Shown piece after piece: positions 17,055-34,875 of a stretch of DNA of 42,014 bases; the stretch's first letter is position 1; every line of letters starts with the position of its first letter. The notes below the pieces were generated by a model. The model was not told where the DNA came from, ran no database searches, and saw only the letters and a list, made by a program, of their open reading frames with translations. The stretch is taken from NCBI GenBank assembly GCA_902513935.1, contig CABXOR010000008.1, forward strand, positions 1 through 42,014. Direction: 5' to 3'. The stretch comes from an uncultured SAR324 cluster bacterium. Its GTDB lineage: Bacteria > SAR324 > NAC60-12. The translations under genes and the position numbers were made by a program.

Positions 17055-18365
17055 TTATTCCTGAACGATACCAACAATTCGAATACCAAGTTTATCATTG
17101 TTGATTTGTATAACTTCCCCAAGAGCAATTGTTTTACCGTCGAGTACCAAATTCACCGGTTCTCCTGCAACTTTATCTAGTTCAATAATGCTCCCATAAG
17201 TTATCTGTGTGATCTCTTCACCTGTAAGTTGAGTGCGTGCTATTTCAACCACGGCTTCATGGTGAAATTTTAACAGCATGTCTGCATCTAAGGGGACTGC
17301 TGATGTTTCTGATGCCTCAGTTTCAATTGGCATCTCGCTCTCTACTTTTTCAATAACAGGTGTTTTCTCAATTTCAGGCTCTACTTCTACGGAATCAGAT
17401 GCATCCATTTGCTCACCTGATACCTCATTCTCTTCCTGAGAATCTGCTGATGTTTCTGATGAAGAATTATCCTCCGTTTCATTATCAAATTTTAGTTCGT
17501 CAATTTCACTTTCTTCGATATCAACCAGATCAGTCTCAGCCTCTTCAGAATCTTTTTTGTCATCCAAAGCATCAATTCCAAGCTCCAGATCTTCTGTATC
17601 ATTTGCTTCATTTTCGGCACTTTCTTCAGGAATATCTGGGTCGTGCAGCATTTCCAAAACCTCAGACGACTCAGTATCAGCTTCCTCAGCGGGGGGGCTT
17701 TCTCCGGATTCTTCTACTGCATCAGTTTCACCTGATGAATCAGTCAATTCCTCTGGATCAAGATCTTCGGTAAGATCCATATTTTCCGACAGATCTAATT
17801 CTTCTGATTCTTCTTCTGATTCTTCTTCTGATTCTTCTTCTGATTCTTCTTCTGATTCTTCTTCTGTACTTTCTCCAGAAATTTCTACACCGTCTGATGC
17901 CTCAGACTCACCTACATCTAATGCTTTGTCAATTTCTCCATCAATATCATCTAAAGAAGAATCGTCAGAATCTGAGTTTTCTTCACTTTCGTCACCATCC
18001 AGTTCATCCAGCAGGCTTTCTACGGAATCACTACTCCCTTCTTCAGTTTCTTCTTCAAACACCATATCTTTTTCTCCATTTACTGATTCATCAGTTTCTT
18101 CTTGTTGAACATCCATTTTTAAATCCTCAACAAGATTCCCAATTTCATCCATGCCAAGATCTATTGGCTCTTCATCCGGTTCACTGTCTAATTCCTCTGA
18201 CTCAGTGTACATATCATCCAAACCAGATTCAGCAAGCCCTTCTGAAGAATCATCTGTGATTTGATCATCATCTAACAGTTCTGTATTTCCAGGTTCAACA
18301 AAAATGTCGGTCGGACTGTCTTCATCAGATAGTTCAATTTCAAAATCATCAGACTTTTCTGCCAT
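17055..18365 (-). CDS. fliN: FliN-like switch protein with a very long acidic N-terminal extension
   Basis: The last 70 residues are a clear FliN SPOA domain (VVEIARTQLTGEEITQI, GSIIELDKVAGEPVNL, VLDGKTIALGEVIQINND, GIRIVGIV), the part that builds the lower C-ring. In front of it are about 360 residues almost wholly Glu, Asp and Ser with few aromatics, including the repeated ESEE run near residue 170. Typical FliN is 80-150 residues. The extension should be disordered and strongly negative. It starts at ATG 18365 and runs without frameshift, so the acidic part is genuinely fused. The codon pattern is purine-rich throughout. fliM follows by 8 bp. Confidence 0.88.
   Translation of the reverse strand: MAEKSDDFEIELSDEDSPTDIFVEPGNTELLDDDQITDDSSEGLAESGLDDMYTESEELDSEPDEEPIDLGMDEIGNLVEDLKMDVQQEETDESVNGEKDMVFEEETEEGSSDSVESLLDELDGDESEENSDSDDSSLDDIDGEIDKALDVGESEASDGVEISGESTEEESEEESEEESEEESEEESEELDLSENMDLTEDLDPEELTDSSGETDAVEESGESPPAEEADTESSEVLEMLHDPDIPEESAENEANDTEDLELGIDALDDKKDSEEAETDLVDIEESEIDELKFDNETEDNSSSETSADSQEENEVSGEQMDASDSVEVEPEIEKTPVIEKVESEMPIETEASETSAVPLDADMLLKFHHEAVVEIARTQLTGEEITQITYGSIIELDKVAGEPVNLVLDGKTIALGEVIQINNDKLGIRIVGIVQE
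17806..17865. repeat. Five perfect 12-bp tandem repeats inside fliN
   Basis: The unit GATTCTTCTTCT (plus strand) occurs five times without mismatch; on the coding strand each encodes Glu-Glu-Glu-Ser in rotation. Because the unit is a multiple of three, gain or loss of copies by slippage keeps the frame and changes only the length of the acidic segment. Confidence 0.95.
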
Positions 18366-32133: not shown

Positions 32134-32700
32134 ATGTACAGTAGCCCAGATTCATTCTATTTAGAAACTGAGCGCTTGTTGCTTCGACCATGGAAATCAT
32201 CTGATTATCATAATTTTTCCCGTTTAGCAAAAAATCCCCAAATAATGCGTTTAGTCAATCAGGGAAAACCTTGGAGTGACAAACGAATTCGGAGCTTCAT
32301 TCATAAGCAGGAGGAGTTGTTTCGGAAAGAAGGTTATTGCCGCTGGGTCGTAGAGGATAAAATAAAGCGTAATTTTGTCGGATTATGTGGAGTGGGAGTG
32401 TTTGATCCTCCAGGTTTCTTAGAGATCGGCTGGTGGATTGCAAAAAGATTTTGGGGGCAAGGTTATGCAACAGAAGCCGCACGTTGTGCTTTGGAACACT
32501 CTTTCAGGAAAATCCGTATTCCACACTTAAAATCAGTTGCGAATCAGGGAAACAAGGCTTCAATTGCCGTAATGCACAAGATCGGTTTTCAACAAAAAAT
32601 GAGTGGTTTTCTAGGTGATTACCTGCGATCTCCTAAATATTTACCAATTGTTACTTATTCGTTGGACAATCCATATCTTGATTCCTCTCTCCAAAAATAG
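32134..32700 (+). CDS. GNAT acetyltransferase, RimJ/RimL type
   Basis: A 188-residue acetyl-CoA-dependent N-acetyltransferase. It opens with the family's ETERLLLRPWKSSDY, has the central strand-helix region EIGWWIAKRFWGQGYATEAA, where R-x-W-G-Q-G-Y-A is the acetyl-CoA pyrophosphate loop, then HLKSVANQGNKASIAVMHKI with the N-x-x-S-x-x-V-x-x-K-x-GF element. The substrate (protein N-terminus, antibiotic or small amine) is not determined. Its last 50 bp overlap the end of the convergent yggS gene. Confidence 0.88.
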   Translation: MYSSPDSFYLETERLLLRPWKSSDYHNFSRLAKNPQIMRLVNQGKPWSDKRIRSFIHKQEELFRKEGYCRWVVEDKIKRNFVGLCGVGVFDPPGFLEIGWWIAKRFWGQGYATEAARCALEHSFRKIRIPHLKSVANQGNKASIAVMHKIGFQQKMSGFLGDYLRSPKYLPIVTYSLDNPYLDSSLQK

Positions 32701-33370
32701 CACTTCCCACTCGAATCATAGTTGCTCCCTCCTGAATAGCCCAATGAAAATCAGCTGTCATACCCATTGAAAGTTCCGTGATTTCTGCAGAATCAAGTTC
32801 TTGCTGAAGTTTATCACGCCATACGCGGAGTTTCTCAAATATTTTTCGAGTTGGAGTCTCTCCCATATTTGGTCCAGGAATAGTCATCAGTCCACGTAAT
32901 TTAAGCCATTTCCCGGATAGTATAGTTTCTGATACTTGCAATATATCCTCCCAGTCATGAAGTCCGGATTTGGTAATTTCCTGGGAAAGATTAACTTGAA
33001 GCAGCACATTGATTTTCTTTTGTGCAAAATCACTACGGGCTTCTAATTTTTCTGCTAATTCGGTAGAATCAAGCGTATGAATCCACTGAAAATTTCCGGG
33101 ACAGAACTTTACTTTGTTTTTTTGCAAATGACCAATCAAATGCCATTCTACCAAGGGGTTTTCAGTCAGGGCCTCGATTTTTCCAAGAGCTTCTTGAACC
33201 CGGTTTTCACCGAATGATATCTGCCCGGCGGCTAGGGCCTGCAGTATCATTTCAGTAGATTTGGTTTTACTAACTGCAATCAGCCGGATGTCTCCCGGAG
33301 TACGTCCGGACTGGATTGCCGCTTGTTTTAATTGTTGCTGAACGATTGCTAAATTATCTTTGATTGACAC
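32651..33370 (-). CDS. yggS: YggS/PROSC-type pyridoxal phosphate homeostasis protein
   Basis: A 239-residue single-domain TIM barrel that binds PLP and buffers its level; no catalytic activity is established for the family. Motifs: RLIAVSKTKSTEMI with the PLP lysine (about residue 35), FGENRVQEAL, EWHLIGHLQKNKVKF, QVNLSQEITKSGL, RGLMTIPGP, and the C-terminal ELSMGMTADFHWAIQEGATM with VRVGSAIFG-type end (IRVGSAIFGER). The start is GTG 33370 with a weak AGAGAT ribosome site. It is divergent from the selenoprotein gene with only 25 bp between the start codons, and 50 bp of its 3' end overlap the GNAT gene. Confidence 0.94.
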   Translation of the reverse strand: MSIKDNLAIVQQQLKQAAIQSGRTPGDIRLIAVSKTKSTEMILQALAAGQISFGENRVQEALGKIEALTENPLVEWHLIGHLQKNKVKFCPGNFQWIHTLDSTELAEKLEARSDFAQKKINVLLQVNLSQEITKSGLHDWEDILQVSETILSGKWLKLRGLMTIPGPNMGETPTRKIFEKLRVWRDKLQQELDSAEITELSMGMTADFHWAIQEGATMIRVGSAIFGERNQDMDCPTNK

Positions 33371-33395
33371 TTTATTTTATCTCTAAAAATTTTTG

Positions 33396-34187
33396 ATGTT
33401 AAAAGAATGTTTAATTGACAAACTTTGGGTTACGCTTTTTCGTATTCCTATACTGAAAAATTATTGGACACGCAGTTATGAAGCAGTACTCTTTGATCAT
33501 GTGCCATGGACAAAGCTTAACAAACCACTGCCAGAATGCAAAATTGCCTTATTTACAACTGGTGGTATTCATTTGAAATCCGACAAAGCTTTTAATCTGA
33601 TTGATCCACAAGGAGACAGTTCTTTCCGCCGAATCCCTTACAGTGTCACCAAAGAAGATTTAACCATTTCTCACAAATATTACGATCACCGTGACGCAGA
33701 TTTGGATCCAAATCTGATCCTGCCATTTGAGGTCCTATTAGAACTCCAAGCTGAAGGCAGAGTCGGTCCCTCCAACAAATTTCATTACAGTTTCATGGGA
33801 CACATAGAAGAACCTAATTTGACGACTTTAATCCAAAAAAGCGCAGTTGATGCAGCAAAAGAAATCAAGCAGCAGAAAGTTGATATAGTTTTGTTGGTGC
33901 CCGCCTGAGGTATCTGCAACCAGACGGTCGGTTTGGTTCAGCGTGAAGTCGAGAGACAAGGAATTGCGACAGTAGGCATTTCGATTGCCCGTAAGATTAC
34001 CGAGTCGGTTAAACCGCCGCGTACATACCATTTGAAATATCCATTCGGTCATGCCATGGGTGAAGCATTTAATCGGCCTCAGCAAAAGCAAATTTTCCTG
34101 GATTGTCTGGATATACTGGGAACTGCAAACGAACCGGGAATAATCATTGATAGCCCTTATCGCTGGAGGCGACATCAGTTTGAATAA
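33396..34187 (+). CDS. Selenocysteine-containing GrdB-like protein (glycine/sarcosine/betaine reductase selenoprotein B family)
   Basis: Read through the in-frame TGA at 33906-33908, one 264-codon gene (263 residues) results. The N-terminal part has the family blocks (VPWTKLNKPL, IALFTTGGIHLKSDKAF, IDPQGDSSFRRIP, DLTISHKYYDHRDADLDPN, LELQAEGRVG, YSFMGH); the part after the TGA continues the same family (ICNQTVGLVQREVERQGIAT, SIARKITESVKPPRTYH, YPFGHAMGEAFN). The junction LLVPA-U-GICNQT gives a UxxC redox motif where homologues have UxxC or CxxC. A SECIS-like hairpin follows at once. ATG 33396 is preferred over the TTG just before it. A redox role is likely; no other grd genes are present. Confidence 0.9.
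33906..33941 (+). promoter_or_regulatory. Selenocysteine UGA and bacterial SECIS hairpin
   Basis: The TGA (33906-33908) is followed after five bases by a stem of 11 base pairs: 33914-33916 plus 33918-33925 pairing with 33931-33941, with one bulged C at 33917 and a five-base apical loop GGTCG (33926-33930). A GGU in a small apical loop about 18 bases from the UGA is what bacterial SelB recognises, as in the formate dehydrogenase SECIS. Confidence 0.85.
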
Positions 34188-34233: not shown

Positions 34234-34875
34234 CTACTGCAACTCTGCTTTCCAAAGCCCGACTTTAAGTTGTTGGGCTTTATTTTCTGCAGAAAGTAAA
34301 TCTTTATGCTCCAGAGGCAGTTCTTTTTCCAGCAGATAGAATGACCAGCCATTCCGGATTAACCAAATATTTATGTTTGTGTCACCAGTCCAGACCATTC
34401 CATCCAGCCGAAATAATTTGTCTGAGTAATCATAATTGATTCTTACCTGTCTGTTGTAAAAAATCTTTTGCATCTCAAAAGCAGCTTTTTTACGGAACCA
34501 CTCGTTATACTCATTGCCGTGACTGATGGAAAGTTTTGGTGAAACATATTTAAGCCAAACACGTACTTCCTGACGCGGTAAATTCAGATTTTTCTTGGAT
34601 AGTTTGAATGTCCATTTGCGATATTCTGAACGTCTTTCAATACGGATCCAAACGCTTTCTGAATCAGTAACTCTGCTGAAAACTCCTATTAAGATGTTTT
34701 CACTGACCGTACGTAGAGGCTTAGACTTCTTCCTGTCATCCATCCGTCCAAAAAGTTTCTGACGGATACTTTCTGTTTTTAATAATCCTTCCTCCGCGCG
34801 TACTTCGTGGAACTCGCTAATCAGACTTCCGAATAAAAAGATAATTGCCATTAATAAAAAACTATAAAACTTCAT
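34234..34875 (-). CDS. Exported SNase-like (thermonuclease-fold) protein
   Basis: A 213-residue protein with a signal peptide (MKFYSFLLMAIIFLFGSLIS, cleavage near VRA-EEG). The C-terminal half resembles the staphylococcal-nuclease OB fold: NEWFRKKAAFEMQKIFYNRQ, VRINYDYSDKLFRLDGMVW, NINIWLIRNGWSFYLLEKEL, and AENKAQQLKVGLWKAELQ, the usual LxxAExxAxxxxxGLW ending. The usual catalytic Arg/Glu positions are not clearly present, so activity is uncertain. Location is periplasmic or secreted. It converges with the selenoprotein gene and is divergent from lptD. Confidence 0.75.
   Translation of the reverse strand: MKFYSFLLMAIIFLFGSLISEFHEVRAEEGLLKTESIRQKLFGRMDDRKKSKPLRTVSENILIGVFSRVTDSESVWIRIERRSEYRKWTFKLSKKNLNLPRQEVRVWLKYVSPKLSISHGNEYNEWFRKKAAFEMQKIFYNRQVRINYDYSDKLFRLDGMVWTGDTNINIWLIRNGWSFYLLEKELPLEHKDLLSAENKAQQLKVGLWKAELQ

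Follow-up and report, generated by a model that had tools for sequence, protein, structure and literature searches.

An in-frame UGA completes a PrdB/GrdB-family selenoprotein of the SAR324 cluster that likely works without a pyruvoyl partner

We analyzed a stretch of 42,014 nucleotides from an uncultured SAR324 cluster bacterium (contig CABXOR010000008.1 of assembly GCA_902513935.1), referred to here at its full length as the window. It carries a gene of the PrdB/GrdB family that is interrupted by an in-frame TGA (Table 1). In translation this TGA is the sole internal stop of the frame and falls at residue 171 in the context V-P-A-U-G-I-C-N-Q; the residue six positions after the U is T or S in all 15 aligned sequences. 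An earlier note made from the DNA alone had taken the two apparent open reading frames (ORFs) on either side of the TGA for a single selenoprotein with selenocysteine (Sec) at the UGA. The conservation of the TGA, the conservation of a hairpin behind it and the selection acting past it bear this out and, as judged from sequence, the locus almost certainly encodes one single-chain selenoprotein with a U-G-I-C motif. AlphaFold2, run on an alignment of 15 sequences, predicted one continuous alpha/beta domain (predicted local distance difference test, pLDDT, 88.8; predicted template modelling score, pTM, 0.88) in which U171 sits between strand 164-168 and helix 172-187. H98, D104, D163 and R209 are further conserved residues of the protein. 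A search of solved structures for relatives of the predicted protein returned none that was significant.

Table 1. Positions of the selenoprotein gene, its recoding features and its direct neighbours in the window.
Feature	Position	Strand	Remarks
PrdB/GrdB-family selenoprotein gene	33396..34187	+	ATG 33396, TAA 34185-34187; 263 residues, predicted Sec171
In-frame UGA predicted to be read as Sec, U of U-G-I-C	33906..33908	+	TGA conserved; Cys in distant homologues
Codon of Cys174, which forms the UxxC pair with Sec171	33915..33917	+	invariant in 15/15 aligned sequences
Selenocysteine insertion sequence (SECIS)-type hairpin, 7-bp stem, GGUCG loop	33919..33937	+	comparative pairing, codon resampling
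YggS-type gene (Pfam Ala_racemase_N), neighbour outside the system	32651..33370	-	divergent, 25 bases away
SNase-domain protein gene, neighbour outside the system	34234..34875	-	convergent

One genome scan yielded 23 related loci; in their best segment the closest two (L001 and L002, both SAR324 cluster bacterium) share 96% and 93% identity with the gene. The TGA column could be tested in 22 of them, as L021 ends before it, and TGA is found there in all 22 at identities of 37-96%. The motif reads U-G-I/L-C in 21 and U-P-I-C in L023. Across the phylum, a search of 52 SAR324 genomes (G002 included) with the PrdB model gave 68 matches in 45 genomes. Exactly one internal TGA is present in 67 of these matches and the remaining one is truncated; because paralogues and one true GrdB are included, the 68 matches describe the wider family. 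TGA occupied the Sec column in all 35 loci that were inspected (L040-L061, L063-L074 and L079). The alignment of U with Cys, which the earlier note proposed to check in homologues, holds at the protein level for 14 of 15 distant database homologues aligned, and the full-length Cys homologues among them are one chain of about 290-307 residues. The ratio of nonsynonymous to synonymous substitution rates (dN/dS) between the window and seven relatives could be computed for six of them before the TGA, giving 0.09-0.19, and for five after it, giving 0.03-0.19, with dS above 1 in four of the five. By these ratios both halves of the gene are under purifying selection, and the part after the TGA is therefore taken to be translated and selected in the same frame.

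The hairpin past the UGA consists of a 5' arm ACCAGAC (33919-33925), a loop GGUCG (33926-33930) and a 3' arm GUUUGGU (33931-33937), the first loop base lying 18 nt past the UGA. Bacterial SECIS elements are found about this close to the UGA. We compared eight pairs in 23 aligned sequences, 20 of them distinct. Among the distinct sequences 89.4% of 160 cells are paired, and three of the eight pairs show changes on both sides (U-A/C-G, G-C/A-U and A-U/U-A); the outermost tested pair, 33918-33938, holds in 6 of 20 sequences and was left out of the stem. The percentage of paired cells, the number of double-change cells and the covariation score were each reached by 0 of 500 shuffles, and sliding the partner by 1-3 columns lowered the pairing to 14-53%. 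In 5000 synonymous-codon resamplings 128.9 +/- 4.8 cells were paired (maximum 148) versus 166 of 184 observed. The mean share of the commonest codon was 0.76 at the nine codons of the hairpin region versus 0.61 at 83 codons outside. These data indicate that the hairpin is kept by compensatory changes, beyond the effect of synonymous codon choice. Coordinates and comparative pairing alike confirm the GGUCG hairpin that had been noted 18 bases past the UGA.

Reading a UGA as Sec implies SelA, SelB, SelD and tRNA-Sec in the organism. We searched for these, applying family cut-offs, in the genomes of the 23 relatives only. SelB exceeded its cut-off in 23, SelD in 20, SelA in 19 and tRNA-Sec in 14 of them. 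ARAGORN called all 14 as tRNA-Sec with a UCA anticodon, two near misses being tRNA-Ser. The implication, already drawn in the earlier note, thus holds in the relatives, and both closest genomes (G001 and G002) possess SelA, SelB, SelD and a UCA tRNA-Sec. SelA was detected in 44 of the 52 SAR324 genomes, 43 times over the cut-off. Each of the 20 SelD matches that passed the cut-off (e.g. L036-L039) itself contains an in-frame TGA, and SelD is probably a selenoprotein in those genomes as well; the SelD match of G002 also holds TAG and TAA stops.

Several observations weigh against a Sec-containing protein that works on its own. P0122, a full-length homologue of 40% identity, departs from the alignment of U with Cys and has Arg (RGWC) at the Sec column; Sec may have been lost there, or the sequence may be a variant. 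For the hairpin, 34 of 500 shuffles attained the count of doubly changed pairs and 44 that of pair types, and no Rfam model matched the region. The folding check proposed in the earlier note gave a divided answer: folded alone (37-38 nt) the hairpin beats shuffled sequences in energy (z -2.4 and -2.6), whereas in contexts of 61 and 81 nt its folding energy does not stand out (z -0.6 and +0.4). Because of these longer contexts we regard single-sequence folding energy as weak evidence, the comparative evidence being strong. Among the 23 draft genomes of the relatives, nine lacked a match over threshold for tRNA-Sec, four for SelA and three for SelD, for which draft assemblies may be the cause. 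Finally, the absence of a partner subunit from any single draft genome is a weak argument.

Among the named families, the protein is matched best by the NCBIfam PrdB model TIGR04483, with an expect value (E) of 3e-42 over model positions 19-236 of 238. The score of 144.6 bits compares with a cut-off of 300, which was reached in none of the 52 SAR324 genomes. The NCBIfam GrdB model TIGR01917 gave E 5e-17 and 62 bits (cut-off 602.2), Pfam GRDB PF07355 gave 43.2 bits, above the gathering cut-off of 22, and the UGSC family NF041046 gave 12 bits and E 0.16 (cut-off 125). The GrdB-family label of the earlier note therefore stands at the level of PF07355, while the protein resembles PrdB more than GrdB proper. 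On these profile scores it is a member of the PrdB/GrdB superfamily that is nearest to PrdB and, because 144.6 bits stand against a cut-off of 300, lies outside NCBI's PrdB equivalog. The wider family holds further variants. A second, TGA-interrupted paralogue with U-P-V-C was seen in G010, G012, G011 and G023, at L063, L064 and L066 on the minus strand and at L065 on the plus strand; the L065 and L066 loci are cut by contig ends. L070 and L071 (minus strand) read U-P-L-D with TGA at the Sec column, so that Asp replaces the Cys of UxxC and a resolving Cys is not universal across the wider family. Four family matches occur in G049 of the SAR324 phylum.

We also looked for the subunits with which such proteins are known to work. 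Pfam PF09338, which by name and function we take to be the pyruvoyl-precursor family PrdA/GrdE, was found in none of the 23 relatives' genomes. Control genomes gave none either; run as a positive control on another phylum (that of G023), the search matched 6 of 198 genomes. Within SAR324, PF09338 is present in one of 52 genomes (G033) and GrdA in one (G028, not the PF09338-bearing G033), neither being a close relative. The PrdC model was over its cut-off in 0 of 52 genomes, with weaker matches in 12. At the thresholds applied, PF09338, PF04723 and the PrdC model all went unmatched in the two closest genomes, G001 and G002. At L079, the locus in G033, a GrdB with an in-frame TGA (ATUGTC) has the PF09338 gene directly behind it. 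In the window we scanned ten neighbours with Pfam; two were without a match, and the families found were Ala_racemase_N, SNase-domain, GNAT, GcpE, HD-domain, HTH, CoA transferase and MaoC. The surrounding gene order is the same in 16 of the 23 loci as far as contigs reach, and neighbour genes differ in more distant loci. No known partner subunit was among the conserved neighbours identified in the Pfam scan. That no glycine or betaine reductase subunit lies nearby, as the earlier note had remarked, is therefore correct for the scanned genes and now extends to whole genomes. Because PrdA/GrdE and GrdA were not found in the closest genomes and no identified neighbour is a known partner, the stand-alone character that the note had proposed is supported, and the SAR324 PrdB-like protein likely works without PrdA/GrdE; the redox activity that the note had coupled to it is consistent with the evidence.

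The divergent neighbour, presumably a YggS by its Ala_racemase_N domain, starts just 25 bases from the selenoprotein start (33371-33395). Close relatives keep about this distance, and it leaves little room for two promoters. Elsewhere in the window, 17055-18365 holds a 436-residue ORF with a very high content of Glu, Ser and Asp and with SEEE-like repeats, and long antisense ORFs lie opposite it.

Taken together, it is very likely that the protein is a single-chain selenoprotein of the PrdB/GrdB family, and we propose that it is a stand-alone Sec/Cys reductase. Guided by the hairpin past the UGA, SelB would insert Sec at residue 171, a step that has comparative support. The U171 selenolate might then attack a small substrate that is electrophilic or oxidised. 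C174 would resolve the intermediate so formed (Se-substrate or Se-S), and thioredoxin or another thiol system could re-reduce the U171/C174 enzyme. The enzyme would operate without a pyruvoyl subunit (PrdA/GrdE) and without GrdA. To call it a nucleophilic C-X or disulfide reductase, as opposed to a catalyst of other Sec chemistry, is a tentative and somewhat doubtful step. As the pyruvoyl subunit and GrdA were not found, the SAR324 protein probably does not act as a D-proline or glycine reductase of the classical kind. According to PMC9908766, the Sec subunit of characterised D-proline and glycine reductases works with a carbonyl (pyruvoyl) subunit. For the reduction of fluoroacetate, a GrdB-like Sec protein has been proposed in a paper which notes that fluoroacetate cannot form a Schiff base (PMC10838667); the chemistry therefore need not depend on a carbonyl.

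Translation could instead end at the UGA, leaving two separate genes or one gene broken by a nonsense mutation. Database gene calls of 148-233 aa among the matches listed (120 of 134), the one inspected entry (P0105), which ends one residue before the UGA, and a TTG at 33933 as possible start of the second ORF would fit this explanation. It is nevertheless very improbable, since the same TGA recurs in 22/22 testable relatives, the residues from TGA to TTG hardly vary (21 of 22 relatives have G-I/L-C and L023 has P-I-C), purifying selection continues past the TGA and Cys homologues are single-chain. The frame would equally be open if TGA encoded tryptophan or a different standard amino acid in this organism, but TGA ends 12 of the 33 window genes counted, Cys stands at the column in 14/15 distant homologues and both the hairpin and the Sec machinery are present, which leaves this idea next to no credibility.

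Other explanations accept the selenoprotein and assign it another role. It might belong, as Sec subunit, to a real D-proline reductase, with the gene for the pyruvoyl subunit lying elsewhere or having changed past recognition. PrdB is indeed the best named family, with nearly the whole model aligned, PrdC-model matches below the cut-off occur in 12/52 genomes and some sources name the relatives 'D-proline reductase subunit gamma' or 'PrdB'. The score is, however, half of the PrdB cut-off, which no genome exceeds, the single PF09338 match among 52 genomes lies directly behind a separate GrdB, PrdC never surpasses its cut-off and the closest genomes gave no PF09338, PF04723 or PrdC matches at the thresholds applied, so we hold a real D-proline reductase to be improbable. 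Less so, though still unlikely, is a GrdB-like reaction that, with no pyruvoyl group involved, cleaves a small acid at a carbon-halogen or carbon-nitrogen bond, as has been proposed for fluoroacetate with FarB/FarE. The distant Cys homologue P0127, named as from Synergistales, speaks for it. On the other hand the FarB/FarE system includes a GrdE-family partner and grdA is present in its host, neither of which was found for the SAR324 protein, and neither a transporter nor a radical SAM protein is among the ten Pfam-scanned neighbours, two of which had no Pfam match.

The stand-alone selenoprotein of SAR324 is a further member of a known marine family and not a new family. In the Sargasso Sea report of 2005 'Proline reductase (prdB, 42 genes)' with UxxC is the third most abundant family (PMC1088965). 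The Global Ocean Sampling (GOS) report of 2008 counts PrdB, with 235 selenoproteins and 110 Cys homologues, among the most abundant families and lists a UxxC 'PrdB' under pfam07355 in its table (PMC2398784). Open-licence literature on SAR324 selenoproteins turned up only PMC5029168, where a table includes two SAR324 strains, and that on PrdB-like or GrdB-like proteins only two Synergistota papers; no report of the SAR324 PrdB-like gene or its missing partners was found there. Gene callers stop at the UGA, and the protein is therefore filed as a fragment of ~170 residues without the active site; the database entries are shorter than the full protein in all matches listed (120 of 134). A protein common to most SAR324 genomes is in this way misfiled. 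We lean towards the view that the common ocean selenoprotein family 'PrdB' is, in SAR324, a distinct single-subunit Sec/Cys enzyme without a pyruvoyl partner and not a D-proline reductase. The interest lies in the family's accepted function, which probably does not apply to the SAR324 protein: with the gene corrected and its partners not found, the marine D-proline reductase annotation becomes a testable question on the role of selenium in SAR324.

Compared with known systems, the protein shares with the UGSC selenoprotein (NF041046) a weak local resemblance around U, at a score far under the cut-off. With GrdB (TIGR01917, PF07355) it has the C-terminal half in common (profile positions 202-384 of 431), with Sec at the same place, but it comprises 263 residues versus 431 model positions, and GrdE and GrdA were not found for it. 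Its P-A-U-G-I-C-N-Q-T also differs from the GrdB motif S-T-U-G-T-C-T-R-C, which we found in GrdB-type genes beside PF09338 in another phylum (L075, L076 and L078; a motif-pattern search at L077, likewise beside PF09338, found none); the GrdB of G033 reads A-T-U-G-T-C-N-R-C. As N-Q-T follows UxxC, the SAR324 protein is without the second Cys of UxxCxxC. The fluoroacetate system FarB/FarE keeps a GrdE-family partner, while the SAR324 protein seems to be without one. PrdB (TIGR04483) comes nearest: a length close to the model's 238 positions and Sec followed by xxC are shared, UxxC being the PrdB motif (PMC13188914), whereas the SAR324 protein scores below the cut-off, PrdA was not found and PrdC matches are sub-cut-off only. 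In the text on the Sargasso 'PrdB', function is taken from D-proline reductase; for the SAR324 gene the host lineage is identified and PrdA/GrdE were not found in the closest genomes. The marine 'PrdB' selenoproteins, described there as abundant in ocean water, share the UxxC motif with the SAR324 protein and, judged by their description, very probably belong to the same family.
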